This document shows, piece after piece, positions 1,110-20,756 of a stretch of DNA of 64,000 nt (positions are counted from its first letter, which is position 1; each line of letters starts with the position of its first letter). Position numbers and translations under genes: made by a program. Under the pieces are notes generated by a model. That model ran no database searches. It saw only the letters and a program-made list of their open reading frames with translations, and was not told the DNA's origin. The stretch is from a virus. The stretch covers positions 1-64,000 of the IMG/VR virus record IMGVR_UViG_3300018416_000011; one strand, 5' to 3'.

Positions 1110-1771
1110 ACGTTTCTTTCTTCCTTAGTTCTAATACCGTCCCACACCTCTTTGTCAAGCCAATGTTCGTCTACATATTTGACATACTTATGATTTGCAT
1201 CTTCCCAAATAAATTTCATTATATCTGGATTATCATATGCAACTGGAAAGTCTAAAATTTTACTTACATATCTTAGATAATAAGCCTTATGTAAAAAGAA
1301 TGCTTCATGGTCTAAGAAATGCACATTATAATCTAATAGATTTGTATAGTAATAGTTAAGTGCTATCGGCAGAGTTACTTCTTTTCTAACTCTTTTCTGT
1401 TGTTCTACGTTTATGTTTTTATCTCTTACGATTATACCTATTGTAACATCAATGCCTAGTTTAATACATTCGTCTGCAAACTCTTTTATTTTAGGTGTAT
1501 AACGTGTGCCATCGTACATGAATGGACAACTGACGTTTGCTACCCAGTAATTATGTTTACTAAAATCAAAATCTTTTAGACGTTCAGGATAAACCCAATA
1601 CTCAGCAAATGTTTCTTCATCACTGGGTACCCAATACTTTTCATTTAATTCTTCCCAGCCGCCTACGTCATCATGTAAACTAAACAGTCTACTGAATAAA
1701 TGATTACCAGACCCTTGTGGACCTGTAATGATTAAGATTTTTTTACTTGTGATATCTTTGCTGTCCAACAT
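1106..1771 (-). CDS. Sulfotransferase-like P-loop protein B
   Basis: This 221-residue protein has an N-terminal strand and loop KILIITGPQGSGNHLFSRL (residues 11-29), typical of sulfotransferase-like P-loop proteins in phage and capsule clusters. There is a second conserved-looking segment around IIVRDKNINVEQQKR. It is a second, divergent copy of the fold next to protein A, so the pair may act on different acceptors or as a heteromer. It overlaps the 3' end of the cupin gene by 29 bp. No Shine-Dalgarno sequence is obvious, so translation is probably coupled. Function is inferred from fold-level resemblance only. Confidence 0.5.
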   Translation of the reverse strand: MLDSKDITSKKILIITGPQGSGNHLFSRLFSLHDDVGGWEELNEKYWVPSDEETFAEYWVYPERLKDFDFSKHNYWVANVSCPFMYDGTRYTPKIKEFADECIKLGIDVTIGIIVRDKNINVEQQKRVRKEVTLPIALNYYYTNLLDYNVHFLDHEAFFLHKAYYLRYVSKILDFPVAYDNPDIMKFIWEDANHKYVKYVDEHWLDKEVWDGIRTKEERNV

Positions 1772-2414
1772 ATGTTCTAATTTTTAATGGGTTAATTTCA
1801 TCTGTAGGGCCTGTACCACTGTCTGGCGCCCATACAAACACGATTACATCTTCGTCTTTGTCACAGATAAAGTTATGTAAACAATTTCTACGCATGAAAA
1901 ATACTTCGCCTTCGTTGACATCATAAAATTCTTTGTTGTCTAATTCTATCTTGCCATTGCCTTTGATGACTAGTCCAACTCTGTGAGAAGGGTGCGTGTG
2001 TAATGTCTGATACATACCTGCAGGAAAATGCACATAGTTAATAACAGGGTCACCTAATCTACCTGGATTGATTGCTGTAGTATTTGTGCCGCCGTCCATA
2101 TAACTTAAGTTACCTATGTCTAAACATTCTTGTATAAAAATGCGACTTTCTAATAAACTAAGTCCTGGAAACTCAACGATACATGCAGAGCCTTGTTCTC
2201 CGCAAGATATTGTAAAATTATCTCCTGTATTGACACATGCATTTTTATTTGTTAATGTAATGTTATTGCTTTCAAAACTAGCATTTCTTAACATAACATA
2301 CGCCATACCAATTGGTTTATAAGTCTTAAGTTCATTGGCTTCTAATTTGATAATCGTCATGTTGTAACGATCTTTTATGTCTAACGTTCCAAAAACGTTT
2401 ACCATTCCTTTCAT
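1743..2414 (-). CDS. Cupin-domain protein
   Basis: This 223-residue protein has a C-terminal cupin barrel. Motif 1 is visible as LHTHPSHRVGLVIKGNGKI, with the HxH metal ligands. Motif 2 is visible as GEVFFMRRNCLHNF, with the third His. The N-terminal 110 residues have no recognised domain and may be a degenerate first cupin. The ATG overlaps the upstream stop (TAATG) and is preceded by GGAG at a good distance. Cupins are isomerases, dioxygenases or binding proteins, so no specific reaction can be named. It sits between the kinase/nucleotidyltransferase and the sulfotransferase-like genes. Confidence 0.7.
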   Translation of the reverse strand: MKGMVNVFGTLDIKDRYNMTIIKLEANELKTYKPIGMAYVMLRNASFESNNITLTNKNACVNTGDNFTISCGEQGSACIVEFPGLSLLESRIFIQECLDIGNLSYMDGGTNTTAINPGRLGDPVINYVHFPAGMYQTLHTHPSHRVGLVIKGNGKIELDNKEFYDVNEGEVFFMRRNCLHNFICDKDEDVIVFVWAPDSGTGPTDEINPLKIRTYVGQQRYHK

Positions 2415-3190
2415 TATAATACTCCGTCTTGTCTCATTTGTTCACGTATTTTAGTTGCACTTATATCATGTACTTCACGTTCAAACGTTTCTTGTTCGAT
2501 TTTGTATCCTACATCTCTACCATATGTGATGTTTAATAAGTTAGGCACAACTTGTATTTTTACTTTTCCTGCATGTTTGTATAAAACTTGTTGTAAATTT
2601 TCTACTACTTCATACGCCGGAAAAGGATTATTAATATCTATGGGCATATCTCTGACCATTAAAAAAACTTGTCCGTGTTTTGCTATTGCTCTATCAAATA
2701 ATGCTTGATGTCCTCCATGCCATGGTTGCCATCTACCTAACATTTGAGTTGTAGGTGCTGTATTATCCCATATAAATCTTTGTCCTATTTCATATGCAAT
2801 AATTTTTGCATCTATATCACCTCGTTTTTCATGTATATTATAGTCTGTAGCAATTGGTCTTTCAAATATTTGATTTGTGTCTTCAAATATACCTTCTTCA
2901 ATTGTATCGACAAAGATTTCATAATCAGCACTAAATTCTTTTCTTGCTTTTTTAAAAGGACAAATAAAATCTGCGATTGCAATTTTACCATTGTCTTCGG
3001 CTTCTTTACAAAGATTATCCATTCTTTGTTTTTGTCTTAATCTACCTTCTTCTGAAAAGTCCCAGTCATTTACATCACTGCGAACCTGATCAGCATTAAA
3101 CCAGGCAACATTGTCACCTAAGTATTCAACTAGTCGTTTTGCTAGATATGTCTTACCACTTCCGGGTAGACCAAATATTAATACTCTCAT
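2414..3190 (-). CDS. APS-kinase-like / HIGH-type nucleotidyltransferase fusion
   Basis: Residues 1-110 look like adenylylsulfate kinase: Walker A GLPGSGKT (7-14), a FNADQVRSDV segment (31-40) matching the family's DGDNVR region, and ADFICPFKKARKEF (73-86) matching its AFISPYxxxR region. Residues 148-258 form a short HIGH-superfamily nucleotidyltransferase with GRWQPWHGGH (His158 and His161) and ISATKIRE (243-250). The order resembles bifunctional PAPS synthetases, but the second half is far shorter than ATP sulfurylase (about 110 versus about 390 residues). APS-kinase homologues also phosphorylate cytidine diphosphoramidate at the 3' position in Campylobacter (Cj1415). Given the adjacent C26 amidotransferase, that is an alternative to sulfate activation. 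Overlaps at both ends couple it to its neighbours. Confidence 0.75.
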   Translation of the reverse strand: MRVLIFGLPGSGKTYLAKRLVEYLGDNVAWFNADQVRSDVNDWDFSEEGRLRQKQRMDNLCKEAEDNGKIAIADFICPFKKARKEFSADYEIFVDTIEEGIFEDTNQIFERPIATDYNIHEKRGDIDAKIIAYEIGQRFIWDNTAPTTQMLGRWQPWHGGHQALFDRAIAKHGQVFLMVRDMPIDINNPFPAYEVVENLQQVLYKHAGKVKIQVVPNLLNITYGRDVGYKIEQETFEREVHDISATKIREQMRQDGVL

Positions 3191-3738
3191 AGTATAAAAC
3201 TCCTAAGGTCGTCAGGTAAAACAGGATCTTGCATTCTTTCAGGATGCCAAACTAGTCCCCAAAGTTTTCTGTTTTTGTGTCTAAATGCTTCAATACTTCC
3301 ATCATCGGCGTGTGCAATAGCATTTAAATCTGCGCCAACTTCCTTTAACTGATTCATGTGAAAACTATTTACTTCGTACTTCTCACCTTCTAAAATAATC
3401 CCGTGAGTAGTATCGTAATGATTTTCTATTGTGCTATTAACTCCTTGCTCTAATTCGTTAATAAGAAATGCACCGTGACAAACTCCTAATACAGGTTTGT
3501 CTTGTATATAACATTGCGTTAATACTTTTGTTTCGACTAGTATTCTTTGAGGACTTGCGTCTCCACCTGTTAAGATTACTAAGTCTAAATCTCTAACTAA
3601 TTTTTTATAGTCTTGTTCTATTATGTTAGGGATATAAAAAAACGTATGATCACTTAACAGGCTGTACCAACCGTGTTCTAAGCAATCATACGCCACGTTG
3701 TTATAATGTAATATCCTCTGTGATAGACCGATATTCAC
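3187..3738 (-). CDS. Class I (C26) glutamine amidotransferase-like hydrolase
   Basis: This 183-residue protein has the class I amidotransferase triad: the nucleophile elbow PVLGVCHGAFL (Cys87) and WHPERM (His165, Glu167), with an oxyanion-side TGGD at 57-60. The start, MNIGLSQR followed by a HGWYSLL / IPN pattern, resembles the capsule-locus subfamily that includes the gamma-glutamyl-CDP-amidate hydrolase of Campylobacter (Cj1417); this is recalled similarity, not a computed alignment. The start codon is GTG, 13 nt after the upstream stop, with only a weak AGAAG ribosome site. The next ATG upstream in frame is followed at once by a stop. A general gamma-glutamyl amide hydrolase role is the alternative. 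Confidence 0.75.
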   Translation of the reverse strand: MNIGLSQRILHYNNVAYDCLEHGWYSLLSDHTFFYIPNIIEQDYKKLVRDLDLVILTGGDASPQRILVETKVLTQCYIQDKPVLGVCHGAFLINELEQGVNSTIENHYDTTHGIILEGEKYEVNSFHMNQLKEVGADLNAIAHADDGSIEAFRHKNRKLWGLVWHPERMQDPVLPDDLRSFIL

Positions 3739-3751
3739 TACATACTTCTGC

Positions 3752-4450
3752 TTACCAACCGTATGCTTCTGATACTAATTTTTGTCCTTCTGCATTATGG
3801 CTAGTGTTTTTGCATGAAATTTCATACAAGTCTTTACGCATGTTTGAAACAAGTTCTTCGATACGTGCTTGAGTTTCAGCATCACCGACTAAAGTTTCTA
3901 ACTTCATTGCGCCGATTGTGCTGTGGAAACCTTCGTCTTTAGCAATTTTAGCATAACGAGTTGAGATAAACTCATCATCGATTACTTCTGCCATTGTGTT
4001 CCAAACGGCTTCTGCACGACCTTCTGCAACTAATTGATATGCGGCAAGAGCGGCTGGATCAGAATCAGCACCATACTTTTCTAAAAGGCTTGCACCTTTA
4101 GCAGTAGGCTTTGCTTCTTCAGCGGCGATTGCTTCTGCAACATCAATCTCTTCACCTTTGATATGTTCAATAACTTCTTTTACTAAACGAAAATGAATTG
4201 CTTCATCGTTTGCTTGTTTAGTTAAGTTTTGAAGTTCAACAGGATCTGCATCAGCAGGCATAGATGCAATATTATTACTAATCTCTACCATGTTCATTCT
4301 TTCGTTAACCATACGTCCAACAAAGTGTTCTACCAACGCATCCTCGTCAGGCATGTTGTCGAAATACTCTGCAACGTTAAGTTGACTTGCTTTGAATAAT
4401 GCTTGATTGCCTTCGACAATACTAGCAACAAATTCTTTGTTTGATTTCAT
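3752..4450 (-). CDS. Ferritin-like diiron protein
   Basis: This 232-residue protein is mostly helical, with two ExxH-type motifs, NDEAIHF and KDEGFHS, each following a helix with a suitably placed Glu (MVNERMNMVE and GRAEAVWNT). This is the ligand pattern of a four-helix diiron protein. The chosen ATG (4450-4448) has AAGGAG 6-8 nt upstream. A longer frame from 4489 would run through this ribosome site and is rejected. A late promoter lies 45 nt upstream. The family includes ferritins, rubrerythrins, MiaE-type hydroxylases and N-oxygenases, so the substrate cannot be predicted. It heads the transcription unit that runs into the left-end cassette. Confidence 0.65.
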   Translation of the reverse strand: MKSNKEFVASIVEGNQALFKASQLNVAEYFDNMPDEDALVEHFVGRMVNERMNMVEISNNIASMPADADPVELQNLTKQANDEAIHFRLVKEVIEHIKGEEIDVAEAIAAEEAKPTAKGASLLEKYGADSDPAALAAYQLVAEGRAEAVWNTMAEVIDDEFISTRYAKIAKDEGFHSTIGAMKLETLVGDAETQARIEELVSNMRKDLYEISCKNTSHNAEGQKLVSEAYGW

Positions 4451-4495
4451 ATTATTCTCCTTAAGGGTTGTAGTAATTAAAATAATCACTACTAG

Positions 4496-4503
4496 TATTT
4501 ATC
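4496..4503 (-). promoter_or_regulatory. T4-type late promoter, GATAAATA
   Basis: The minus strand reads GATAAATACTAG, one base off the T4 late consensus TATAAATA. It ends 45 nt before the ATG of the ferritin-like gene, which has a good ribosome site, and probably drives the whole left-end cassette. Confidence 0.75.
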
Positions 4504-4540
4504 TCTGGGATTGAGAAAAATATACGCACTTCATAAAAAT

Positions 4541-4548
4541 TATAAATA
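4541..4548 (+). promoter_or_regulatory. T4-type late promoter, TATAAATA
   Basis: Exact TATAAATA, 36 nt upstream of the methyltransferase ATG. A TATTTATA at 4548-4555 gives a second exact copy on the minus strand, so this 134-bp gap is a divergent late promoter region. Confidence 0.8.
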
Positions 4549-4584
4549 TATTTATACAATTTACAGTAAGGACAAAAAAATTCG

Positions 4585-5328
4585 ATGAATAGCAAAATTT
4601 TTAACTTGGTTATGGAAAATTTAGATGAGGCACTGAACTTACCTAAATACGATCACATCAGAACTAATCTCAATGAGAAAACTACGTTTGAAGAAATGGC
4701 TATTACTCCAGTCAAGTTTGATAAGTTCAAAGAAGATATTTTAGCAACAATGGACTTAGATGCAAAAATTAGATGGGAAGGCACTATCGAATCTGTTGTT
4801 GATCAACTAGACATCAAATACTCTAGTATGTTTTTCGGTGAAATTTGGAAGCCACAGACAGAAATATATAGTTATACAGGCTGGCAGTTAGTTGATGAAG
4901 TTAAAAAACTTAATCCTAAAGCAGTATTAGATGTAGGTTGCGGATACAATCAATTTAAAGAACGTATACCAAACTTGATCGGCATTGATCCTTATAACAA
5001 TATGTCAGACTATCAAGTTGATGTTTTAGAATATGCAAATGTTGATGAACACTTTGATGCAATTATAGCATTAGGATCTATTAACTTTAATAGTATTGAA
5101 GATATTAGAGTGAGATTAGCAAACTGTAATAAGTTACTTGCTAAAGGTGGTAAGATGTTCTTTAGAGTCAATCCAGGTATTCAACATAAGAACGGGCCTT
5201 GGGTAGAAGTATTTGAGTGGAGTTTTGAAGTTGCTCACAACTTTGCTAAAGAGTTTGGATTAGAACTAGAGACGTTCAAACAAGATGCTAATGACAGAAA
5301 GTATTTTGTTTACAGTAAACCTGCTTAA
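4585..5328 (+). CDS. Class I SAM-dependent methyltransferase
   Basis: This 247-residue protein has motif I AVLDVGCGYNQF at about residues 112-123, an acidic motif II after LIGIDPY, and the typical HFDAIIALGSINF and LAKGGKMFFRV strands of a Rossmann methyltransferase. The first 100 residues form an accessory N-terminal region with no recognised family. AAGGA precedes the ATG. It is divergent from, and shares a promoter region with, the ferritin-like gene, so it may be expressed together with the left-end cassette and add a methyl group to its product. A nucleic acid or small-molecule target is equally possible. The 3' end overlaps the convergent small gene by 4 bp. Confidence 0.8.
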   Translation: MNSKIFNLVMENLDEALNLPKYDHIRTNLNEKTTFEEMAITPVKFDKFKEDILATMDLDAKIRWEGTIESVVDQLDIKYSSMFFGEIWKPQTEIYSYTGWQLVDEVKKLNPKAVLDVGCGYNQFKERIPNLIGIDPYNNMSDYQVDVLEYANVDEHFDAIIALGSINFNSIEDIRVRLANCNKLLAKGGKMFFRVNPGIQHKNGPWVEVFEWSFEVAHNFAKEFGLELETFKQDANDRKYFVYSKPA

Positions 5329-5519
5329 CCTCGTTTAACTAAACGTAAACTTCCTATTCTATAGTCAGGAATATTATACATCTTTTTCATTAATTGTCTT
5401 GCTTCAAAATGTGTTTGAGCAGAGACAGTGAAGTCCATGTTGCCTGTGTATCCCGGTTGCTGTACAAACACAGTTGCGGCATAAAGATGATATGGCTTGA
5501 CAACTTCAGATGCTCTCAT
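5325..5519 (-). CDS. Small conserved-type phage protein
   Basis: This 64-residue basic protein starts MRASEVVKPYHLY and contains an alternating beta-like segment ending in YRIGSLRLVKRG. The start resembles the other head-interior candidates in this region (MRATEF, MRINEI) but lacks the following [I/L]xE site. It follows the next gene by one base and belongs to the same leftward unit. Function unknown. Confidence 0.65.
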   Translation of the reverse strand: MRASEVVKPYHLYAATVFVQQPGYTGNMDFTVSAQTHFEARQLMKKMYNIPDYRIGSLRLVKRG

Positions 5520-5520
5520 C

Positions 5521-5835
5521 TTACTTCTTCGGCTTGTTGCTTACGTTCTTTGCTTTACCCCTGCGATTCTTATTAGGGTCATTCTTTTTCTTTCTTTTGA
5601 CTGCGTTTCCAATTGCTTTCTTGCCACCAGAGTTACGTAGACTTGCGGCTTTACTTTTAGATAAACACTTAGGTTTGCCTTTGCCTTTACCATCACCGCA
5701 TTTACCTACACGTTCGCCTTTGGTATTGTATCTATCCCAACCACCGCCTCCGGCACCACCGTCTTTGCCTTTGCCGAACCAGGCTCGTAAATCTTCTTGG
5801 ATAATTGACTCAGTTAAGATTTCATTAATACGCAT
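5521..5835 (-). CDS. Basic Lys/Gly-rich protein with LTE N-terminal signature
   Basis: This protein has 104 residues from the ATG at 5835-5833, which overlaps the upstream stop as TAATG. A longer frame from 5871 would only add codons inside the upstream gene. It begins MRINEILTES, a close match to the capsid-targeting type of N-terminus. It continues with a Gly-rich acidic/basic linker, a two-cysteine block (GKCGDGKGKGKPKCLSKSKA) and a strongly basic tail. The Cys block resembles short phage domains of the DUF5872 type. Small, basic and late-expressed, it is a candidate packaged DNA-associated protein. Function is inferred. Confidence 0.7.
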   Translation of the reverse strand: MRINEILTESIIQEDLRAWFGKGKDGGAGGGGWDRYNTKGERVGKCGDGKGKGKPKCLSKSKAASLRNSGGKKAIGNAVKRKKKNDPNKNRRGKAKNVSNKPKK

Positions 5836-7094
5836 TATTTTTTCTTCTTTTTCTTTCCGCCAGTGCCCCAATTGGATGCACCTACTTTACGACACTTAAC
5901 TAAAGCACCAGATGCGTATGCACTAGGCCATACTTTATATCTGCTTTTGACTTTGTGATAACAAGCATCTTTTTTGCCTGCGGCTTCGTCAAACTGTTCT
6001 TCTGTAATCATATCTCCTGCTTCTTCATCTTCATAGATACTCTTTTCTAATTTTCCGTGTTTCGGTGTGAAGAACGTCAATAGTTTATCAAACTTATCTT
6101 TACTCATAATAGCCACTTGTTGTAATCTTTCTCTGTCTTGTGGCTTGACATTCATGTACATTTCTGTAAACAAATTGATATCTTTTAATGGTAAAATAAC
6201 TTCTGAACCGTCTAAAAACTTAATTGGGTGATCGCCGTCTACGTCTTGGGCTTTTCTTAGTTGCATTAAAATATGCGGGACTTTATCTTTTTCAGGATCT
6301 TCTGGCTTTTCATCTTCTTCTTCATCATCGTCATCATCATGTCTTGCCTTTCGTTTTGCTTCGTCAATCTCGTCCCAAGCAAATGCTTCTGATAAGCCAG
6401 ATAATCTTTTAATATCTTCTGATATTTCTGATTGTGGCACATCACTTATTTCTCCGAAGCCAATCATATCTGTCAACTCATCAAAAGTTATAGGAAAAGA
6501 TTTACCGTTTCTATTCTCTATTTCATATTCTGCTGGACCACCATAAGTATCAAGACCTATAATTTTTAAAACTTTTACTTTGCCTAACTCAGGATGATCA
6601 ACAATATCACCAGGTATAGGTAAAAAAGTAATATTATAATCTGTCATTAATTGATGCCTTAATATTGCTTTCTGTGTGCGATCACCATTTGGGTCATTTA
6701 ATAAATCAATTTCCTCAACCCCTGTAAAACCAGACTCTGTTAGTCCAGATAATCTTTTAATATCTTCTAATGATTCATCGACTTTAGGGTCATTGCGTTT
6801 TTTGCTGATGACTTCTCCTGTGTTTCCGCATGATGTACAACCTTCTCCCTTACAACTAGGACATACTTGGGGATTTCCCCCTTCTGGTTTTGTATGACCA
6901 TGTGCTGGATCATATTTCTTTAGTTCTCTTTCAGTACTGTGTTTACTGTTAGTCGTAGGCTTTTTACCTTCATATGTGTTAGTATCACTACGAGCATCAC
7001 TAGCAATACCCATTACCATGCCAGGAGAACCGTCTCCCTTATATGAGTTTTCACTCAAATAGTTTAATCCTGCTGTCTTTTTATACTTGTCCAT
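5835..7094 (-). CDS. Multi-motif head-interior candidate with DnaJ-type zinc knuckle
   Basis: This protein has 419 residues from the ATG at 7094-7092. A GTG at 7109 is also in frame but lies in the late promoter. Visible in order: a double CxxC knuckle VCPSCKGEGCTSCGNTG; DIKRLSGLTES; a middle region with ISEDIKRLSGLSEAF; an Asp/Glu-rich stretch; and a C-terminal Cys-containing basic block KKDACYHKVKSRYKVWPSAY ending in a Lys run. The C-terminal block resembles short repeats seen in other marine T4-like virion proteins. Two copies of the DIKRLSGL peptide, each followed by an LxE site, suggest processing by a gp21-like prohead protease. No enzymatic function recognised. Confidence 0.75.
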   Translation of the reverse strand: MDKYKKTAGLNYLSENSYKGDGSPGMVMGIASDARSDTNTYEGKKPTTNSKHSTERELKKYDPAHGHTKPEGGNPQVCPSCKGEGCTSCGNTGEVISKKRNDPKVDESLEDIKRLSGLTESGFTGVEEIDLLNDPNGDRTQKAILRHQLMTDYNITFLPIPGDIVDHPELGKVKVLKIIGLDTYGGPAEYEIENRNGKSFPITFDELTDMIGFGEISDVPQSEISEDIKRLSGLSEAFAWDEIDEAKRKARHDDDDDEEEDEKPEDPEKDKVPHILMQLRKAQDVDGDHPIKFLDGSEVILPLKDINLFTEMYMNVKPQDRERLQQVAIMSKDKFDKLLTFFTPKHGKLEKSIYEDEEAGDMITEEQFDEAAGKKDACYHKVKSRYKVWPSAYASGALVKCRKVGASNWGTGGKKKKKK

Positions 7095-7099
7095 ATTAA

Positions 7100-7107
7100 T
7101 ATTTATC
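7100..7107 (-). promoter_or_regulatory. Late promoter GATAAATA ending 5 nt before the start codon
   Basis: GATAAATATTAATATG on the minus strand. With T4 geometry (octamer at -13 to -6) the transcript would begin at the A of the ATG at 7094. The octamer overlaps the stop of the upstream radical SAM gene. Confidence 0.7.
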
Positions 7108-8749
7108 ACTCTTTGCCTAATTTTTTATTAATATAATCATTAAGAAATTCTCTATGACTATTTATATCACTATCAGTTATTTGTTCAAAACCGTTTTCTC
7201 CGTAAGTATTATCGTAAATATCTTGCATTGTATATTTACCTGTTGTAAGAAATCTGTGATAAGAAAAAGGACCGGGTCCACTGACATGATTTTTTAATGA
7301 ATTAGGATCAGCCATCATTTCGTCAAATGTTTTATATGCGTCCCAAATGTTCATAGTATCATGTTCCCACTTAACTTGATTTCTTTCAAATATTTCTGTT
7401 CTAATTTCAGGATCTTTTATCGGATCTGCTTTATCTAATTCTTTTAGGTCTTCTAATGATAATTGTCTAAATACATCTCCTTCTCTCCATGTAACCTCAA
7501 ACTCTGAAGGATGCGAAAGAAAGTTAGCCATAGTAGAATCTCCCATATACAAAACAGATATCCCATATGAATGACCACCAAAGTTATTCTTTAACCAGTC
7601 TGCACCTTCAAGGAATGACTCTTTTGTCTCGCCCGGTAATCCTAAAATTATTGATGTATGGACATTATAATCTCCTCTCCCTGCTTCTTTGTCTTTAAAC
7701 CATTTTTGTACTTCAAGTAACCCACTTTTTAGTTTATCTGGGTTCATGCCTTTACCTACATACTTAGCCGCCTCATGATTGAAAGATTCTAAACCATAAT
7801 AGTGTGATCGTAAACCCATATCATATAAATCTTGCCATGTACTAGGTTTGGCTACTAACAAGTCCGCTCTCATAAATCCTCCCATATGGGGTTGGAACGG
7901 TAAACTTCTAATTACTTCAGCATATTTGGCTAATTTTTCAGGTTTATCATTGATTGTTTCATCAGTGCAATTATAATTTGTAACTCCCCATTTGTTATAA
8001 TTATCTAACAATTCTTCTCTAAGGCTATCCTTACACCGAGAATAATCTCCCCTTACTCCCAATAAACTAAACGCACAAAACTTACAAGCAAATTTACAAC
8101 CTCGAGAAAGTTCTAAAGACAATACTTCGGTGGGTTTTATATAATCTCGTTCTTCATACTTTATATGAGCAGTAGGCATAGGATATGCTGGATAATCATG
8201 CAAAGAATCTATAACATTTATTTTTTTATGATCTAGTTTACGTTCTGTTATTTTTAAAGTATTAAATTCACGTTTAAAATATTTAAGCAGTTCACTAATT
8301 GCAAGTTCTGCATACCCAGTTACATAATAATCTAAATCCCAATCTGTCAACGATACTAAATTTTGCGATCCTCCTACAAATTTAACATGTGGATATAGTT
8401 CTTTTAAAAATTTTATCGTTTGAAGCATTTCTAGGATTTTCTTTTTAGCGCCGACACCCTTGCGGGCTATGTTTCCGAACGGAAACATTACTGAAAGTCC
8501 AATTGCCAATGTATCTTCTCTTACATGTGTTTGAAAAAATTGTATTAATTGTAAACGAGACCAAGCAGGCCAAAAATCAAGTACTTCTACATCATAACCT
8601 TCTTCTCTAAGTACAGTTGCAATGCGATGACTACCTGCACTTCGTTTAAGACTGGGCCACCAATATTCTGTAAGATCATCGGCTTGTTCAAACATATTGT
8701 CATGCAGTTCGATAAACCCACCCATGATTATCATGTGACCTTTAGACAT
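7106..8749 (-). CDS. B12-binding-type radical SAM protein
   Basis: This 547-residue protein has an N-terminal Rossmann-like region (about 1-165) with the order of a cobalamin-binding domain, including the SVMFPFGN and VKFVGGSQNL strands. The radical SAM cluster motif is CKFACKFCAF (Cys218, Cys222, Cys225). Later segments HMGGFMRADLL, SHYYGLESFNHEAAKYVGKG and TSIILGLPGETKESF are standard barrel strands of this class. Similar genes occur in marine T4-like phages without a known substrate. It sits between head-interior candidates and is co-oriented with the asparagine-synthase-like and Cys-cluster genes. A lone accessory enzyme acting on a host metabolite or a virion peptide are both open. Confidence 0.85.
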   Translation of the reverse strand: MSKGHMIIMGGFIELHDNMFEQADDLTEYWWPSLKRSAGSHRIATVLREEGYDVEVLDFWPAWSRLQLIQFFQTHVREDTLAIGLSVMFPFGNIARKGVGAKKKILEMLQTIKFLKELYPHVKFVGGSQNLVSLTDWDLDYYVTGYAELAISELLKYFKREFNTLKITERKLDHKKINVIDSLHDYPAYPMPTAHIKYEERDYIKPTEVLSLELSRGCKFACKFCAFSLLGVRGDYSRCKDSLREELLDNYNKWGVTNYNCTDETINDKPEKLAKYAEVIRSLPFQPHMGGFMRADLLVAKPSTWQDLYDMGLRSHYYGLESFNHEAAKYVGKGMNPDKLKSGLLEVQKWFKDKEAGRGDYNVHTSIILGLPGETKESFLEGADWLKNNFGGHSYGISVLYMGDSTMANFLSHPSEFEVTWREGDVFRQLSLEDLKELDKADPIKDPEIRTEIFERNQVKWEHDTMNIWDAYKTFDEMMADPNSLKNHVSGPGPFSYHRFLTTGKYTMQDIYDNTYGENGFEQITDSDINSHREFLNDYINKKLGKE

Positions 8750-8750
8750 A

Positions 8751-9374
8751 TTAGTTCTTTAGTGTGCCGATATTAGGAATGTAATTATTTCCGGTCTCGT
8801 CAACGAGTCCATTTATTAGTTCTTGTATCATCTCATCGGTGAGATGTCGCCTACGCATTTCACTAGATTTAAATCTTCCCCATATATGTACTTCAACTGG
8901 AACGTCTCCGTCTACTTCATCGACTGCATACATTCTGTGTCTTCCTTCGTGCCCTGTGACCTTCGCAGGCTGTGATAGATCGCCTTCTTCCCACTCATCG
9001 GGTATTACAATAGATAAGAAAGGACTTGCAATAGGGACGCCCTTACGAACTTTATCAACTAAATCTTCATATTGTGAACTACGCATATCTCTTGGTAAAC
9101 TTAATGCTAACTTATGAAATGTAGAAGGTTTCATCATAACACGAATACCGAAATAGTCTGGTTGACCGCCTGTATTATTAGGAACGACACCCAAACCTTT
9201 TTCATTATCTAAATTGTATTCGTCTAATGCAGATACACCTGCAGGGACAGGAGTGTCTGTAGGCAAAAAGAATTTGTGTTTACCTTTAGATGCTTTTTTA
9301 AGTTTGTAAGCAGGCATTGTTTTATAATCAGGTATTCCTGCAAATCCTTCACTTATAAATTCTGTTGCTCTCAT
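8751..9374 (-). CDS. ParB/Srx-like protein with ISE N-terminal signature
   Basis: This 207-residue protein begins MRATEFISEGFAG, matching the [I/L]xE-small-residue signature shared with other genes here. The C-terminal half contains KVTGHEGRHRMYAV, then PVEVHIWG. This is the GHxxR-type loop and following strand seen in ParB N-domain or sulfiredoxin-like phage proteins. It overlaps the upstream gene by 4 bp and precedes the radical SAM start by 1 nt. Nuclease or NTPase activity cannot be claimed from this. A packaged DNA-handling protein is plausible. Confidence 0.65.
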   Translation of the reverse strand: MRATEFISEGFAGIPDYKTMPAYKLKKASKGKHKFFLPTDTPVPAGVSALDEYNLDNEKGLGVVPNNTGGQPDYFGIRVMMKPSTFHKLALSLPRDMRSSQYEDLVDKVRKGVPIASPFLSIVIPDEWEEGDLSQPAKVTGHEGRHRMYAVDEVDGDVPVEVHIWGRFKSSEMRRRHLTDEMIQELINGLVDETGNNYIPNIGTLKN

Positions 9375-10813
9375 ATGTTTTGCTCTAAATCGTGGTCAAT
9401 AGTGGCTTCATAAGATGTAGTATATAATTCATTGTAGTCTGCAAAAACTACATCATTGCGTGGTGTTACAAACTTATAGTTATATTTATCTAGCAATGCT
9501 CGTTGTGTTGGTGCGTTCATTGCAGTACCACTTAATACATTGTTATCAGATTTTAAAAATTCATAAAATATCTTTCTATCACTGTATAATGATGAAGCCA
9601 TAATGTTTATATTACCTGTAATTACACGTGTATATAATTTAGGAGTTGTAAGATTTATTAATTCATTTTCAAATTCTTCATATTTTTTATGTGATAGATA
9701 GTGTGTATTCGGTGAGTCAAACCATTTGTCAACAAATTTATTAACAATAGCAGTAAAACCGTGGTGTGAGTTCTGTTCTTCTTCAGAATTTAATATTGAA
9801 TATGTAGAGCCATATAGATTATTTTTGTTTCGTATATCTGCTAAAAAATCTTCTTTCATTTTAATTTTATCAGTGTTATAATACTGTAAACACAAAAATA
9901 ACATATGAGGTATTAAATCTCTACAAAACATCTCGTTACCATTACTGCCGTACATGATAATATCAGGTTTAATGTCTTGCATTTTTACTTGCATCAGTGT
10001 TGGCAGTACAGATTGCCAACGACATGAAGAATCCGTCAAGTGATCTAGGCAATGCTGTCTGTTATATTGTGTTTCATATTCCATAACATGCGTATTAGGA
10101 AACTGTTCTTGTGCTAATTTTATAAATTTTTTATGGTTTTCTGCTGAAATGCACGGCTCTACAATATATAATAATTGTCGGTCATCTTTAAAAAATTGAC
10201 CTTGTACTGCTGAATCAAATCCTTCACTCAAAGAACACATCCTAACTGGATATTTTTCTTTAATAATATCTGCGTGTTGTTGCATACACCCATGTATATA
10301 GTCGGTTAATTCTGCTTGATCATGCCAAATTTCTTGTGCAAATGCATCTTTTGCATCTTGTATGTAATCATAGCCTGGATCAAAAATAAATATCTTATCA
10401 TAATAAGTAGTGCGTTCTGTTTCTGATAGTTCACGTTCATATTGATCTGGTTTAACACTTGTTCTAACAATGTCTTCTTGCTTAATTGTCATGTAGGGCA
10501 AATAGTTAGTAATTTCTATACCGTGTTTGTTACCGATAAACAATTTATGGTTTTGAAAATAATCTAATGCTAATTCATAATTGTCTTTGGTGAGTTTTAT
10601 TGCAAAGAAATTTCCATTGGTTTTTTTAAAACTAAAGTTTTTACAAACTTCATCTATGTCATCGTCAATTAAATAACCGGAATGTAATACAATAAAATTT
10701 TCTCCTTCAAATAATTCAACATCATTTTCACGTATAAAATACCAATCACCAAAATTTTCTATGTTCCAGTCTTTTGTAAATTTAGATTTTTCCTTGCAGA
10801 TAAAAAATCTCAT
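9371..10813 (-). CDS. Asparagine-synthase-like amidotransferase
   Basis: In this 480-residue protein, residues 190-205 read VRMCSLSEGFDSAVQG, a variant PP-loop (SxGxDS) as in the ATP-pyrophosphatase domain of AsnB-type enzymes, followed by LLYIVEP and the segment PDIIMYGSNGNEMF, comparable to the GxGxDE region. The N-terminal 110 residues hold NGNFFAIKL, which resembles a class II glutaminase strand. There is no Cys at position 2 (MRFFIC), so glutamine hydrolysis may be absent and ammonia or another amine would be the nitrogen donor. The substrate is unknown. It overlaps both neighbours by 4 bp. Confidence 0.65.
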   Translation of the reverse strand: MRFFICKEKSKFTKDWNIENFGDWYFIRENDVELFEGENFIVLHSGYLIDDDIDEVCKNFSFKKTNGNFFAIKLTKDNYELALDYFQNHKLFIGNKHGIEITNYLPYMTIKQEDIVRTSVKPDQYERELSETERTTYYDKIFIFDPGYDYIQDAKDAFAQEIWHDQAELTDYIHGCMQQHADIIKEKYPVRMCSLSEGFDSAVQGQFFKDDRQLLYIVEPCISAENHKKFIKLAQEQFPNTHVMEYETQYNRQHCLDHLTDSSCRWQSVLPTLMQVKMQDIKPDIIMYGSNGNEMFCRDLIPHMLFLCLQYYNTDKIKMKEDFLADIRNKNNLYGSTYSILNSEEEQNSHHGFTAIVNKFVDKWFDSPNTHYLSHKKYEEFENELINLTTPKLYTRVITGNINIMASSLYSDRKIFYEFLKSDNNVLSGTAMNAPTQRALLDKYNYKFVTPRNDVVFADYNELYTTSYEATIDHDLEQNI

Positions 10814-11280
10814 CGTATTCTTATCTTACCTTTTTTAGTACTTAATTGAGCAAACAGCCAATCTTGTCCTAATTTATCTTGCATTTCATCTAACATGTCG
10901 TTGAGTAATTCTTTATTGTTTTTGTATTGAATATCGGGCGGTAATTCTTTATCATTAGAGTGTATGACAATTCGACTGTTTAAGGGTAAACCGTCTCTAA
11001 ACGTTACAAACCCTGTATTTTTAGGATGGTGTTTTTCTGAAAGGTTGCGTTCTATAAATTGACAAAAGAATTCTTTACAGACTCTAGGTTTATTTTCTTG
11101 TATAGAACACCCGGTGTCGCATAGTTTATTGCAAGTTTCCCAGGGTCCGAAATCAATATCAAATTTTTCTGCTTCGTTGTAAAGATCAGTAATCTTCCAA
11201 TCTCCTGTAAACCCTACAGTTTGACAACACATTGTACAATCACCGCAACGAGGTTCAGTTGGTACGATTTTTATTTTCAT
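10810..11280 (-). CDS. YkgJ-type cysteine-cluster protein
   Basis: This 156-residue protein has an N-terminal CGDCTMCC, then CNKLCDTGCSIQENKPRVCK and a final FFCQ. This is the Cys spacing of the YkgJ/UPF0153 family, proposed to bind zinc or an iron-sulfur cluster. The C-terminal 70 residues are not recognised. The ATG follows GGGGATAG at ribosome-site distance. It is the first of three co-oriented accessory genes (this one, asparagine-synthase-like, then, after a ParB-like gene, radical SAM). The family's biochemical role is undefined. Confidence 0.75.
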   Translation of the reverse strand: MKIKIVPTEPRCGDCTMCCQTVGFTGDWKITDLYNEAEKFDIDFGPWETCNKLCDTGCSIQENKPRVCKEFFCQFIERNLSEKHHPKNTGFVTFRDGLPLNSRIVIHSNDKELPPDIQYKNNKELLNDMLDEMQDKLGQDWLFAQLSTKKGKIRIR

Positions 11281-11283: not shown

Positions 11284-11853
11284 CTATCCCCAACCGAAGT
11301 CGGCGTCATTGTCTTGGGCAAATTTAACTATTTTTATTAATTGATCGATGTACTGATTTATTTGTCTGTCACTAGTGCCACCGTGGTACATAGTTATACC
11401 TGTTTTTCCTATTCTATCCATACCGTCTTTGTCTTTATACGCACCTATCTTACCGCCTGTCATTGAACCTGGCTCAGTATATTGTGATGTGTCTGCATTT
11501 TTTAATTGTATAAGTCTACGCATGACAGCAGGCAAATCTTTATTATCTACATGTCCTGCAACTTTTTCTAATCCTAACATATCAATGATTTTAAATGCAT
11601 TAGAATTACTGACATTCATTTCAGGAGCATCACTTACAAACTCAAGTCTTTGTCCTTTACCCTCGCAATAATCACAGTCCGCTTCATCGTAATATTTGTC
11701 TTTACCTGTACCATCACAAACCCAACAATCTACATCTTTGCGTTCACCAAAGTGACTCATATCATGTACGGTTTTGCCTCTGTCATCCACATAGGACTTC
11801 GTCACTGAAAAATCAATGCTCTCGTTCAGTTTTCTGAAGTCCCTTGATTTCAT
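11284..11853 (-). CDS. Head-interior candidate with paired CxxCxGxG zinc motif
   Basis: This 189-residue protein begins MKSRDFRKLNESIDF; LNE-S fits the prohead protease pattern seen in its neighbours. Residues 40-70 contain CWVCDGTGKDKYYD and CDYCEGKG, two DnaJ-type CxxCxGxG half-knuckles that together would bind zinc. The C-terminal part has no recognised domain. It lies between the lipoprotein gene and the YkgJ-type gene in the same leftward unit. The zinc knuckle is shared with the proteins at 5835-7094 and 12803-18868, suggesting a common fold element among packaged proteins. Confidence 0.7.
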   Translation of the reverse strand: MKSRDFRKLNESIDFSVTKSYVDDRGKTVHDMSHFGERKDVDCWVCDGTGKDKYYDEADCDYCEGKGQRLEFVSDAPEMNVSNSNAFKIIDMLGLEKVAGHVDNKDLPAVMRRLIQLKNADTSQYTEPGSMTGGKIGAYKDKDGMDRIGKTGITMYHGGTSDRQINQYIDQLIKIVKFAQDNDADFGWG

Positions 11854-12504: not shown

Positions 12505-12806
12505 TAGTCTATTAAAACCATATATGCTTCTGGATTATGTTTTCTAAACCAGTCAGAACCTTTTCTTACTAAGTCCCATTGCTGTGTTAAGTTCGCACCC
12601 ATGATAACATCATATACTGCAATTTCTTGTGGGTCAAGTTTAATAGTAGCACCACTGATAGGATTCATTACAGTTGCAGGTTCATCATCTAATATTTGTG
12701 CATCAAATGGCATAGGTCTATCTTTCATTTTCTCTTGCCATGATTCACGCAACGTACCTGATAATTCTCTGATACGATTTAATTCGTCATAATTTACTTC
12801 TTTCAT
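12504..12806 (-). CDS. Small protein with IRELSG motif
   Basis: This protein has 100 residues from the ATG at 12806-12804, which overlaps the upstream stop (ATGA) and follows CGGAGAT at good spacing. A longer frame from 12869 lies wholly inside the upstream gene and is rejected. It begins MKEVNYDELNRIRELSGTLR, a variant of the DIKRLSGL peptide found in two neighbouring proteins, with LRE-S following. The C-terminal half (WDLVRKGSDWFRKHNPEAY) is a compact, probably helical region. Function unknown; a head-interior protein is plausible. Confidence 0.7.
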   Translation of the reverse strand: MKEVNYDELNRIRELSGTLRESWQEKMKDRPMPFDAQILDDEPATVMNPISGATIKLDPQEIAVYDVIMGANLTQQWDLVRKGSDWFRKHNPEAYMVLID

Positions 12807-15800
12807 TTTATATCTCCGGTTGGCTTTTCGCCAGTCATTTTTGGTAGTGAAAACCACAGTTGAAACCATTCAGGAGTTCCGGGCTGAATGTTTTTCTCTT
12901 TCATTATCTTTGCAATCTCTGCCGCAGTCTTTGATATGTTTGAACCTGAATATGCTGATGTTGCACCTTCAACTTGTACTGGTATCTGATAACGTTCATA
13001 CACGCCAGACAATCGTTTAATGTCTTCTAATTCTTTTACATGTAAGAACTCACTAGTTCTAGGTAACTTCTTACCTTCTTTAACTACACGTAAAGGGTTA
13101 TAAATTTTTCTTGCTCTTTTGTATAGGTCTGCAAAGTCAACATCTGCTACTAGTGGATATTCAGGTAACCCTGGTCTTTGTTTTGCTCTCCAGTCTGGAT
13201 TAAGCCAATTCATTATTAGTGGTCTAACATCATCTTCTTCATCTAATTCAGACATAGCATCAAATAACCCATCGTCACCGATAACATCATCTAATACATC
13301 TTCTGCATCATGTCTTTTAATCTTTTGATATTCTCTGTGTTTCATATTAGACATGCCAGCAGTGCAATCTATGTTGTCAGGTATTCCGTTTGGATACTTA
13401 TTGACAAGTGCTTCTAGTTTCTTTACTCTTGCTTCAATGTATTCGTTTGTAAGATGTTCAGGTTTTGAATCAGCATCTGGAATAAGCATTTCTTTCCAAC
13501 GTCTCAAGTCATCTTTGATGTCATAGCCTGGCCCACAGCCATGTCCTTGACACACTTCACAACTTAAATCAACATCATCATTATCTCCACCTCTTAGTAA
13601 AGGTTCTTTCAATAACTCTAATGCTTTTTCTGCATCAAATGCCCAAACGTTTTCTTGTACTTTCTTTTTACCTACTTTAGGTATTCTATTTGTACCAGTC
13701 TTTAATGGTCTGTTAATCATTTCTTTTAACTTACCGTCACTGACAAGTCTGTCATACTTAGGCTTTTGTATTGCCCAAGAGCCGTTCTTCATAAAGAAGC
13801 CCATTGCTTTTAATTGTTCGTTACTATAACTTCCTGTCAATCGTATGTTATTTAAGAATACTAGTTGACCATAATTTTGCTTTGGCTTTTTCTTTTTTAA
13901 TTCCCAGTATGCTTTATCTCCTAAACTTTCAAACAATACTTTTGACAGCATATAATGCCATTTATTTTCACGTAACCATTTGTTTGATTTTGCATACTGA
14001 TCAAATATAGGTTTTAGTTCAGGGAAAAGACCTGTTTCTGGATCAAAGAATAATTTTTTCTTTTGTTCTTGTGATAGATTAAACTGTCTATAATCACCGT
14101 GATAAGTTGGCTCTAAGAAATAAGCAACACGATTATTAGAAAAATAAATCATCATAGTATTTTTCTTTTCAAAATCTCCTCTTGAATAATCTAAAACACC
14201 ATGAGTAAAATCCCAAGGTAAATCTAAATCTCTAACAGCCCTAGTTGCTGTATGCCATGGACTTTGCATGTTTACTATTTTACCATCTTTACGTTTTCGA
14301 TAAGGCTCATCACTAATAGGATTTAAAGTAATTAAATATCCTGTTCCCGGACCTAAAACTTTTTGCGGCAATCTGTTACCATACCCACTTGCATTAATAC
14401 CCAAGCCATCAGGAAACTTAAATTCTTTAATGTTATTAATCCAAGGTTTACCTTTATTTGTTATTTGAGGATTAGGTAATTGAGCAACCTGTCGAGGACC
14501 CCATGCCTGTGTAGGTGATAAACCCATTTGTTTTAGTTCTTTGGGTTTGGCTATCTTATTTAAATTTAATAATTGATTGCCTGTTGTTACCCATTTAGCA
14601 TCTGGTACTTGAGTTAAAGTAATGCCTCTGCCAGTAGTACGATGATAGTCATAATCTAAAAATTTGCCACCGGATTCAGGCTTTATGCCGACAACACCTT
14701 CTGATACTGTCTCAGATATAAACCTTGACATTCCTCTAATACTGCCGCCTTCTTGTTTTGGTGCTAAATCTTTTGAATTAGCATATTCATTGGCCCATTG
14801 AGTGTAAGGGTCGGGGTTGTCACTCTCCTGCCGCTGATAATAATTTTCTGAACCTGCTAATAATCTGTCTTCTATATTTTGAAAAATAGCCTTTCTTCCT
14901 TGCCAAATATATAAAGGATTTGAAATGCCTATTTTTGCAATACCTACTACATCTACACCATGAACTTTTGGTACGTCTATTGTCATTTGTTCTGTTGTTA
15001 TAGGTAAAAAATTAATAAATGCCCCCACGCCATTTGTCTTTGCATTTGCTTCTTCTGCCTTTTGTTCTAACCATCGCATTAACTCTGGATTTTGTTTTGC
15101 TCTTGTAAGATAGTTTCTAGCAGTGAAACTTGCCGTGTTCATATTTTCTTCATTGGGCTGTGGTACAGCACTTAATTGATCAATAATAAATTGTTTATTT
15201 TGTGGAGCCTCAGTAGCAGTATATCTTTTATTATCATTATCGAATTCGATTGCATTGACTTGTAATTCTGCAACACCTCTAAAAGGATCTATGTACAAAG
15301 GAACTTGTAAGAAAGGATTGCTTTCTGTACTTTCAAAGTTAATCACATACGATTCACCAGAGTTCCAATGATCGTCATCTTCCCAATCTTCTTCATGCCC
15401 TGCTATTTTTCTTGGGTTTAATGTGTGGGCAGTTCGTTGATATTGCGACATACTTCTTTCAGTTTCAGATGATATATGTCTATCACTAATTTCACCATTG
15501 GTTCGTCTAATTTCATTTGCTATTGGGGTAATATAATAACAATCAGAGCCATCATGGTTTTTAAATATATAAACTCTGTTTTGTCCTACTTCAATTATAT
15601 CTTCTTCTGTTAGATTTTGAGTTCTAACATCTCCAATCTCTTTACTCTTTTCAGCAATATAATTTGCCAACTCGGGAAAACGTTCCATTAGTTCATTATA
15701 AAGAGGTGTGTTAGGTGTAATACTTCCTGCACCTCCCCTAGCAGAATCTACAAAGTCTGACATTGAATCGTTTTTACTATGATAACTATTATTTTTTTGT

Positions 15801-18800
15801 TCCCCAACACCTAATTGAATCATTCCCCTTTCATTAAATGCTACAGGTCTTCCGTAATCTGTAAATACGTTAGTTGATTTTCCTAATGGATTTGTTTTTA
15901 AAGGATGATACTCAAACATAGTATAATACTCACCGGGGTATTTTTCTTCATCTGGTACAATAAAGTATTTGTCTAAGTTAGGATCATTTGTTGTTTGTTT
16001 TTCTAATTTAAATCCGTCCATTTGCTGAACATTTTCTGAAGAATCTTCTGGTTGTTTTGCAAGTGCTGGATGCGGAACTTTAGGATGTACATTTTCATCT
16101 TTAATCATTCCTCTTAATTCAGGATAGTATTTAAAGAAATCGATAATTTCTTTAGAGTCTAAACTATATTGATTTTCTCTTAATTGAACTCCGGCTTGTA
16201 CAAAATCTTCATTGCCCTGTTCTTTAGTCCTACCATATTTATTAACAGGTACAAAATGATGAGTGTTTTTCCCGATACGTTCTATTCTAATGTCACTAAT
16301 TTTTCCTGACTTGCCGCGATAATCTTTTAAACTTAAGTAAATAAAAAATGTATCTCCTACTTTACCAAATGGATTTTTTTGTTTAGGAAAAACTTCAAAA
16401 CTAGGTAGTTGGAAGGGGTCTCCTTGTTTGGGTCCGAACTGTGATACTATTACACGATCATTATCAACAACCTCTGTGGGCGAAAAACTCCAATCTTGTA
16501 ATATATCATCATTATAACTGCTGTCACCTGCGCCATGTTCTTTAACATCATACTCAGGATTATTTTTAATAAATTTATCCCAGTCTTTTATTTGTAATGC
16601 TCTGATTTCAGGAAAACTTTTTAAAACATGTCTTTTAGTTTGCTTGTCCCCTATCTTTGTCTGAGTACCGTCTGAAGCAGAATGATAAATTTCACTTAAT
16701 TGAGGAATTTCTGGACTCCAACTAATGGCATATGATTCACCTTCTTCTGCATCTTTGGGTTGAACAATAAAGTTACGCATTGTTTCTGCTGTGGTATCAT
16801 GCCAGTCATTTCTATAATATGATCGTTTGTTTGATTCACGTTTTGTTTTTCCAAAATCTTTTACGTTGGCATTTGATACTTCTTTTGTTTTAGGTGATGC
16901 TAAAGAAGTGTCCTTGTATAATTCTTTTAAACCAGGATATTTTTCTATAATAGAAATTGAAGGTAAAAAGGGTAATGCGTTTGATGATCGAAAGGAATCA
17001 TTCATCCTTTGATAATAACGTTGATATTTAGATTCTTCTTCTGCATTACCATAGATATCTCCGGCTGGAGTTCTCAGATTATAGTCTTCTTCATCTGCTA
17101 AATCATATAATGGTCTAGGCTCTGCTTGTATAATTTTATCAACATTGCCATCTCGTTGATTACGATAAACTACTGTTATTGCATTTGTTTCTTTATCATT
17201 ATCTTTTGTAATTATATAGTCTAAGATAGGTTTTCCGTCTGGAGTTACGTGACTTTTAATTATTACATCACCTTTGTCATATAGTTTGTAAGGCATTAAA
17301 GGTGCATATTTTTGATATAAGTCTTCTTTAAATTTTCTTTTATCTTTGGCATCACCATGATGTTGCCGGACCTCATGTTTAATTTTTTTATCTAATAGAG
17401 GAGAATACAAATCAATAAGTTCAGGATGTTCTAACGTTACTTCAAAAGGATTAATCTGATCTCTAATCTCTTTTTTATCCTTTGATGTAAAAGGATTTGT
17501 TTTCTGTGTATGTACTAATAGTTTATCATCTCCAATCCGGCTCTTGTCTGGATCTCTTAGTTCTATTGATGTGCTATGACCTTGCTTGTCTTTAAGAACA
17601 GCGGTCGTCCCATGCATCTCTATATCAGCACCCGATTTTGTTTGGCTCCGAGTAGGATCTTTTTTAAGGTGTTTTGTTTTTAATCCAAATTTACTAATTA
17701 GTTCAGGATATTTATTAACTAATTTGTGCTGTTCTAATACGTTTAATGTTGTATCATCTCTATATCTACTATTACCGATTTTTTTAATTTGGTAGTTATC
17801 ATCATTGGGATCTTTTTTCCATAGCATGTATATGTCTTGTTTGCCATATTCACCATCTACATCCATTTCTCCTAACATCAAATATAAAGGCTTATCATTT
17901 TTTCTGTATTCTTCTACTGTAAAGTTAGAACCTTTCATAACTCTTTTCGGTTTTTGTAGATATATAAGACCGTACTTTTCTGCTTGTGGTTGAAAGGCAT
18001 CTTTAAGTGCTGGGTATCTATTTACTAAACGAATTAATTGATCCTGATCCAAATAAGCATCTGTTTCGTCTGCAACTACGTTGTCTTCAAAATGAAACTG
18101 ATATTTTTCTCCTGGATGATCTGGTTTGCGTGGGACAAATATATAGAGAGGTCCTCTACGATTGTATGAAGCAAAATAATTGTGTCCTCGTGTTGAGGCT
18201 GTACACCAACGAGTTCCGCGACCATATCGACATGCCGCTTCTTTGTCTTTTGGATGAATAATTAAGACGCCATTTTCATCATATATTTTGTCTGCTTTAT
18301 ATGTTTTGTTTTTTGCTTCATCATCATCTAAAACGTCATTAGGATATTGATCCATATCATTCATAAACGCATCAAAATCTTTATATTGTCCTATGTCTGC
18401 ATTAGACAAATGACGTTTAATTTTTAATTTATGAAACTTATCTAAGTAATCAGCAATAGTAGATTCTACATCTTCTAAACTTGTTTCACCATTGATATAC
18501 AATCGTGCTAACCACTGTACATAACCTTTATTGTTTGTAGGGTCTGCGGCTTCTAACTTTTCTAAGATATGAACGGCTATTTGATTTTCTAAAATGTTAT
18601 ATTGTTCTTGTGCTTTTTGTATTTTAGGTTGTAACTTGGCTAGTTCTTCGGGTTTGATTTCGTTCTGTTCTTTTTTATTCTCAAAATCAGTTATTTGAAC
18701 GTCAAGTTGCTCCATTGTTTCAAATGCTTTTGTAAGTTTAGGAGTCAACAGACTAGGAAAATCTATTATATCTAAATTAAAACGGCCGACAAGGCCTTCA

Positions 18801-20345: not shown

Positions 20346-20756
20346 TTATGATAGCCTAATTTTTAAACTAGTATTTTTGTGTTGTTCACCGTAACCAACA
20401 ATGTTAAGAGTAAACATGCCGGCGCCTGTTGAAATAATAGGTTCGACACCTTCTTCAACTGCGGGAGGTGTTGCGTCATATACCAAAGATACTTCTTCTC
20501 CAGTAGATACTTCTTTAGAAAATACTGCATCATCACAATGTAATTCAATAAACCATTTATCGATTGCAACTTCTTCATCTAAAGGATAATGTTCTAATAC
20601 AGTTACGTTAACTGATGCTTTTGTAATAAAGTCTTCAAAGTACACACCATTAGAAAACACACATTCTTCATTGAGCGGAACTACGTGTTCGGATGCATCG
20701 TCAGATTCGATAGCATTTTTTAAAAGATCGTCAAGTGTTTCAATATTTACTTCCAT
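20346..20756 (-). CDS. Acidic beta-rich hypothetical protein
   Basis: This 136-residue acidic protein shows alternating hydrophobic strands (VNVTVLEHY, WFIELHCDD, FTLNIVGYG) suggestive of a beta-sandwich. The ATG overlaps the upstream stop by one base and follows GGAG. No family recognised. It lies between the 706-residue and ParB-like head-interior candidates, so a small virion component is plausible. Confidence 0.6.
   Translation of the reverse strand: MEVNIETLDDLLKNAIESDDASEHVVPLNEECVFSNGVYFEDFITKASVNVTVLEHYPLDEEVAIDKWFIELHCDDAVFSKEVSTGEEVSLVYDATPPAVEEGVEPIISTGAGMFTLNIVGYGEQHKNTSLKIRLS

Follow-up and report, generated by a model that had tools for sequence, protein, structure and literature searches.

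Genes at the locus

We analyzed a window of 64,000 nucleotides (positions 1 to 64,000) of the IMG/VR virus record IMGVR_UViG_3300018416_000011, which comprises 79,134 bases in total and is termed G000 below, and focused on a gene unit at positions 7106-11280. The unit encodes a B12-type radical S-adenosylmethionine enzyme (rSAM), a protein with the fold of asparagine synthetase B (AsnB) and a cysteine-cluster protein resembling YkgJ. Comparison with closely related records supports the view that the genes of rSAM and the AsnB-like protein form a coupled unit, apparently swapped as alleles on a constant genomic backbone. From the gene set of the record, namely a clamp loader, a Dps-like protein, an ATP-dependent protease family, virion structural PHROGs and a tail tube, we infer that a T4-like myovirus is a fitting assignment. 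The unit contains four genes:

10810..11280, minus strand: YkgJ-like CX2CX2CC cysteine-cluster protein of 156 amino acids (aa), with a possible Fe-S or Zn site as judged from the motif
9371..10813, minus strand: AsnB-fold amide synthetase-like protein of 480 aa without an N-terminal Cys, assigned from the predicted fold and the PP-loop
8751..9374, minus strand: 207-aa gene between those of AsnB and rSAM, with a 'GHEGRHR' motif; left unexchanged where the enzymes are swapped
7106..8749, minus strand: B12-type radical SAM enzyme of 547 aa, assigned from Pfam and the fold; swapped together with AsnB

The YkgJ and AsnB genes, the AsnB and 207-aa genes, and the rSAM gene and its neighbor at 5835-7109 overlap by 4 nt each, and the 207-aa gene is separated from the rSAM gene by 1 nt. 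An earlier note on this DNA had described three of the four genes as an overlapping unit, and their positions proved exact; the 207-aa gene is a member of the unit that was not named there.

Assignment of the three enzymes

The radical SAM domain of rSAM was recognized by Pfam (PF04055; 41.8 bits against a cut-off of 29.5), while the B12-binding domain scored 22.4 bits, below its cut-off of 32.1. The cluster site RGCxxxCxxC was kept in all of the 46 aligned relatives. The NCBIfam matches were led by B12-type families and stayed far under the cut-offs (47.8 bits against 360 for the best), and none of the named B12-type equivalogs (PhpK, HpnJ, BzaD, TIGR04072 and others) scored above its curated NCBIfam cut-off. 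The weak matches included families that modify ribosomally synthesized and post-translationally modified peptides (RiPPs) or methylate proteins, namely rSAM_ocin_1, ApyD and MCR glutamine methylase. A structural model built from 46 viral relatives (mean predicted local distance difference test score, pLDDT, of 91.9) aligned end to end with TsrM (Z 19.6; root-mean-square deviation 4.3-4.7 over ~440 residues), followed by OxsB (Z 19.4), AprD4 (19.2), CysS (19.1) and MgmA (18.9). The full-length fold match and the predicted N-terminal cobalamin-binding-type domain thus argue for a B12-type radical SAM enzyme, as the earlier note had it. The viral protein resembles TsrM, OxsB, CysS, TokK and MgmA over its whole length in possessing the cluster site, the N-terminal B12-type domain and the radical SAM barrel, but differs from enzymes of the TsrM/OxsB/CysS/MgmA type in sharing only 13-17% identity with them, and no close cellular relative of the viral family was found. 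Two near-full-length matches (22% and 18% identity) in a library of predicted viral structures, both from uncultured Caudovirales, are named Fe-S oxidoreductase and radical SAM, so the family has already been deposited; we found no published study of it.

No Pfam or NCBIfam AsnB family matched the AsnB-like protein, and hhalign gave no match to Escherichia coli AsnB, so that a sequence-level link to the latter was rejected. A structural model predicted with modest confidence (mean pLDDT 60.1, predicted template modeling score 0.63, C-terminal part low) had its best fold matches in beta-lactam synthetase (1mc1, Z 17.6), carbapenam synthetase (1q15, Z 17.0) and E. coli AsnB (1ct9, Z 16.6). The alignment spanned the N-terminal nucleophile (Ntn)-like and PP-loop synthetase domains (model residues 1-470). 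In all 9 relatives, the PP-loop S[ED]GxDS was kept and residue 2 was R or K, and the N-terminal catalytic Cys was found in none. The protein is therefore likely an AsnB-type enzyme devoid of the glutaminase Cys, as first proposed from the letters of the window. It shares the two-domain fold and the PP-loop with AsnB, beta-lactam synthetase and carbapenam synthetase without a match in sequence, and differs from glutamine-dependent AsnB, which bears the catalytic Cys directly after Met. Beta-lactam and carbapenam synthetases possess a catalytic Tyr-Glu dyad. The searches of PDB sequences with the AsnB and YkgJ profiles returned chance-like matches only.

The YkgJ-like protein retains the motif C12-x2-C15-x2-C18C19 plus further invariant Cys in the 9 aligned relatives. 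It thus resembles the CxxCxxCC proteins of PF03692 in the exact motif and in additional conserved Cys, with PF03692 scores below the cut-off: three of the nine relatives matched at that level and the copy in the window did not match. Consequently, the name YkgJ rests on the motif, which agrees with the Cys-cluster protein anticipated in the earlier note. FliB is described as holding a [4Fe-4S] cluster through a related motif, CX4CX3CC, that enables the methylation of flagellin lysines (PMC8598068), yet the spacing of its Cys residues differs from that in the YkgJ-like protein.

Exchange of rSAM and AsnB between close relatives

Five closely related records (G001, G002, G006, G007 and G008) were compared with the first 49 kb of G000. 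Against G007, 44 of the 45 genes in this region had a match, with a median identity of 95% and a median synonymous divergence (dS) of 0.31. The genes of rSAM (54% identity, dS 1.31) and AsnB (55%, dS 1.49) showed the lowest identity and the highest dS of the 44, the next lowest gene being 80% identical. They are the extreme pair among 946 possible gene pairs, in a test conceived after seeing the data. The 207-aa gene between them was 97% identical with a dS of 0.31, which is the genome median; thus, the exchange was not a single tract. Sliding identity dropped and climbed sharply at the gene borders of rSAM and AsnB. G008 repeated the pattern of G007, as did G006 across 23 shared genes (rSAM 64% from a piece of 280 codons, 57% in the full alignment). 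Further along the record of G000, between 49 kb and about 66 kb, no gene had a match in the records of the five relatives.

The trees of rSAM and AsnB shared the same shape, ((G000,G002),(G001,(G006,G007))), in which G015 was placed beside G006/G007 for rSAM. The two enzymes rejected the backbone clade in the approximately unbiased test (p of 4e-88 and 1e-7 for rSAM and AsnB, respectively), and the backbone of eight genes and the 207-aa gene rejected the grouping of the enzymes in turn (p of 0.0016 and 2e-4, respectively). Among the close relatives, YkgJ was found only in the allele group of G000 and G002. The ratio of non-synonymous to synonymous divergence from the close relatives was <0.3 for both rSAM and AsnB, indicating that the two genes are under constraint.

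Distribution of the three genes among viral records

In IMG/VR, 391 stretches were verified by a profile scan as coding for relatives of rSAM. The 80 best loci were retained, and the 108 rSAM copies in them formed 46 groups at 88% identity. In contrast to this abundance in viral metagenomes, tblastn searches of 50,697 phage records with three family members gave no match, and a scan of 84,980 genomes, which was pattern-based and may miss diverged relatives, gave one weak match in a metagenome-assembled genome of Nanoarchaeota. AsnB was detected in 17 records (15 of 72 plus 2 of 17 screened); 15 of the 17 represent ten groups at 95% identity, with G015, a fragment, and G048 not placed. YkgJ accompanied AsnB in 11 of the 17 records and rSAM did so in 9, leaving G013, a fragment of 9.6 kb, as the sole record with neither of them. 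All three genes were found together in G000, G002, G048 and G049, the latter two of which entered the sample via the rSAM search. YkgJ occurred in only 1 of the 69 AsnB-negative records that had not been found through YkgJ, as opposed to the 11 of 17 above (Fisher 6e-9, relatedness of records not corrected for), and it precedes AsnB with a 4-nt overlap in distant phages as well. The exception among the 69 is the 130-kb record G081 (locus L179), which possesses rSAM (471 bits), two YkgJ-like matches and no AsnB. Altogether, AsnB looks like the hub, with YkgJ and rSAM as optional partners. Independent occurrence of the three genes, named in the earlier note as a refutation of their grouping, was seen in part: most rSAM relatives lie in records lacking AsnB, and YkgJ also occurs by itself, but AsnB is accompanied by YkgJ or rSAM in 16 of 17 records. 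Our literature search, in which subscription papers were mostly not covered, found no paper joining rSAM, AsnB and YkgJ in a phage.

Separately, L009 (positions 1819-6187) and L010 carry three tandem paralogues of the rSAM family whose genes overlap as a unit; the next gene is amidinotransferase-like (labeled by sequence reading; no Pfam match).

Several observations weigh against a coupled module of these enzymes. The rSAM of G015 is 96% identical to that of G006 and 67% to that of G001, and its AsnB fragment is 92% identical to G001 and 88% to G006. In the comparisons with G001 and G002, other genes were as diverged as the enzymes or more so (20346-20756, 45% and 38%; 12803-18868, 49% and 73%), and thus the clean pattern rests on G000 versus G006, G007 and G008. 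The joint exchange could stem partly from physical closeness. G075 and G076 retain YkgJ, AsnB and the 207-aa gene at the same locus, from which rSAM is gone, and no rSAM of the family beyond a partial match of 16 bits was found on their contigs, so rSAM is dispensable. In a distant group of phages (lineage 2), rSAM, where found (G048 and G049), lies >50 kb away from AsnB. Finally, the trio sits outside any glycan cluster, which bears on the host-surface target considered below.

In a competing explanation, the genes are unlinked auxiliary genes of separate pathways, situated in a recombination-prone region, exchanged as one stretch, and with the 207-aa gene later restored by homologous exchange. 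The occurrence of most rSAM relatives at other genomic places without AsnB or YkgJ (57 of 72 records lack AsnB), the YkgJ of G003-G005 that occurs without AsnB, the lack of rSAM in G075 and G076, and the discordance of G015 are all in line with it. On the other hand, the intervening gene at median dS, the agreement of the rSAM and AsnB trees, and the YkgJ-AsnB pairing, which persists in distant lineages although the other neighbors differ there, speak against unlinked genes. We regard this explanation as somewhat improbable.

Neighboring virion genes and the candidate substrates

Three neighbors of the unit were considered with regard to the substrate:

5521..5871, minus strand: small basic protein with the N-terminus MRINEILTE after an internal Met
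5835..7109, minus strand: phrog_727-type protein, a virion-type neighbor overlapping the rSAM gene; alike in both enzyme types bar indels
11284..11853, minus strand: 189-aa neighbor with a CxxCxG-type zinc motif and the start MKSRDFRKLNE; not swapped in G006 and G007

The earlier note had placed the enzymes among head-interior genes. The N-terminus of the 207-aa gene, MRATEFISE, resembles the T4-type N-terminal motif for capsid targeting and prohead-protease cleavage, and the motif occurred in none of the three enzymes. In all, 12 of 132 candidate N-terminal Met were followed by such a motif versus 11 of 430 internal Met (Fisher p 0.002), an enrichment that is suggestive of virion-interior neighbors. 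Behind an LxE-type site, a 207-aa-type gene of G076 (L244, 2937-3533) and the window's phrog_727-type gene at 5835-7109 have the segment 'ENSYKGDGSPGMVMGIASDAR' in common, as though virion genes had exchanged N-terminal packaging segments. In L163, a 207-aa-type gene lies beside many open reading frames (ORFs) with repeats of the type 'NPSEAVQLAAV', which make up a large family of paralogous repeats.

It had also been suggested that an adjacent small protein could be the substrate of the enzymes. While the enzymes were 54-55% identical between the window and G007, the neighbors were 89-100% identical over the aligned parts (99% for 5521-5871, 91% over 190 codons for 5835-7109, 97% for 8751-9374, and 89% for 11284-11853). 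When ORFs of at least 20 aa were compared up to 7 kb from AsnB, distant lineages had only AsnB itself and YkgJ in common, bar shadow frames and a weak stretch of 56-61 residues of 5835-7109 in one record (L034). Likewise, no conserved precursor peptide gene of the RiPP type was found beside AsnB within 7 kb across lineages. As the neighbors neither vary with the enzyme type nor recur beside AsnB elsewhere, a neighboring substrate is not supported. The resemblance to loci for modification of peptides or natural products therefore stands as far as the enzyme folds are concerned, which are akin to those of TsrM, OxsB, CysS and beta-lactam synthetase, and is not supported for the neighboring substrate.

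The same results bear on the possibility that the enzymes modify a neighboring small protein in a RiPP-like manner, or another virion protein. The embedding of the unit among genes with capsid-targeting-like N-termini, the weak matches of rSAM to the three RiPP- or protein-modifying families, its fold match to MgmA and the methylation of flagellin by FliB would fit this possibility, but the constancy of the neighbors under a change of enzymes, and essentially no neighbor or small ORF common to the AsnB lineages, leave it with little probability.

In lineage 2, the neighborhood of AsnB contains a desaturase-like protein (labeled by sequence reading) and AMP-binding proteins; since the neighbors differ between lineages, they do not fix the substrate. 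The AMP-binding family PF00501 was found in G010, G011, G012, G014, G048 and G049 (with the cut-off reached by G010 and G014). Besides, a PF00550 acyl-carrier-type protein and a 227-aa gene lie directly upstream of AsnB in G009, a phage record of 154 kb (L030, 5217-6122). AsnB might thus join an acid activated by a carrier or an AMP ligase to an amine, and rSAM might methylate it, yielding a lipid-like or peptide-like product. The structures of TokK and CysS, which hold pantetheine-bound substrates according to their titles, are compatible with such an assembly, but PF00550 was present in only 1 of 50 records, and we consider it quite unlikely. For the phage in the window, a pathway of this kind was rejected, as no PF00550 or PF00501 match was found in G000, nor in G001, G002 and G006-G008.

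Among the other genes of the window, 12803-18868 encodes a protein of 2021 aa with a 'GTRWCTA' region, strongly diverging between relatives (49-89%), with no Pfam match and one weak PHROG of unknown function.

Adjacent cassette and clues to the host surface

A second gene cassette spans positions 489-5328 of the window:

489-1109: sulfotransferase-like P-loop protein
1106-1771: P-loop protein
1743-2414: cupin
2414-3190: adenylylsulfate (APS) kinase-like P-loop domain fused with a nucleotidyltransferase-like domain; absent in G001 and G006
3187-3738: class I glutamine amidotransferase (GATase); best NCBIfam match gamma-glutamyl-CDP-amidate hydrolase, 100.9 bits, below the cut-off of 250
3752-4489: ferritin-like protein
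4585-5328, plus strand: methyltransferase

The cassette is syntenic in the distant lineage-2 phages G049 and G014, and in G035 without the last genes (L253, 6171-9814; L255, 4393-8033; L254, 5608-8184; 35-61% identity). In G049, it is surrounded by a carbamoyltransferase, two lipopolysaccharide-type GT25 glycosyltransferases, a SPASM radical SAM protein and a sulfotransferase. The methyl phosphoramidate pathway includes a gamma-glutamyl-CDP-amidate hydrolase, and the cassette may represent a set for phosphoramidate-like glycan modification. In Campylobacter, the methyl phosphoramidate group of the capsule is described as a phage receptor (PMC5808241). Considered as an ammonia source for AsnB, the GATase was present in 10 of 17 AsnB records and 1 of 7 AsnB-negative controls, and missing from G009, G075 and G076 among other AsnB records. 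Genes of the nucleoside diphosphate-sugar epimerase type (labeled by sequence reading) were found near rSAM in 6 of 46 groups.

Two similar pelagimyophages are described as differing in their host recognition clusters by radical SAM cassettes (PMC7029224). By description, the present locus is alike in that T4-like marine phages are concerned there and that radical SAM cassettes vary between similar phages. The main text of that paper contains no occurrence of asparagine, YkgJ or B12, and its section 6 does not describe allele exchange.

A proposed exchangeable tailoring module

We tentatively favor, short of an even chance, an exchangeable tailoring module whose substrate would be a small molecule or part of the host surface. 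Sequence evolution supports the coupling of rSAM with AsnB, while we infer the chemistry and the target. The AsnB-fold enzyme would adenylate a carboxylate with ATP and join it to an amine, presumably other than glutamine-derived ammonia as the glutaminase Cys is lacking. The B12 radical SAM enzyme would methylate the same scaffold or alter it by other radical chemistry, and the Cys-cluster protein may provide a second Fe-S-dependent step or serve as a metal or redox partner. The target would be a glycan or lipid of the host surface, or a small molecule, rather than the neighboring virion proteins, and the product would be varied by allele exchange, as expected under diversifying selection from host interaction. 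A more specific proposal, which we rate as rather unlikely, is a phage-borne diversifying module made of an amide synthetase with interchangeable radical and Fe-S partners, of which alternative allele pairs persist in one population. If true, the allele pairs would decorate the host surface in chemically different ways or yield distinct small molecules, making chemistry a variable trait in the conflict between phage and host or between phages.

Phages carry auxiliary metabolic genes. The allelic exchange of an enzyme pair while the virion backbone, and even the gene lying between the two, stays constant is a distinct pattern, which singles out enzymes that may cooperate and an output apparently worth varying. 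As rSAM is common in viral metagenomes but gave no match in the phage records and one weak match in the genomes scanned, an entire branch of radical chemistry of the B12 type may belong essentially to viruses. The substrate of the rSAM family, once found, would reveal what such phages alter in their hosts.

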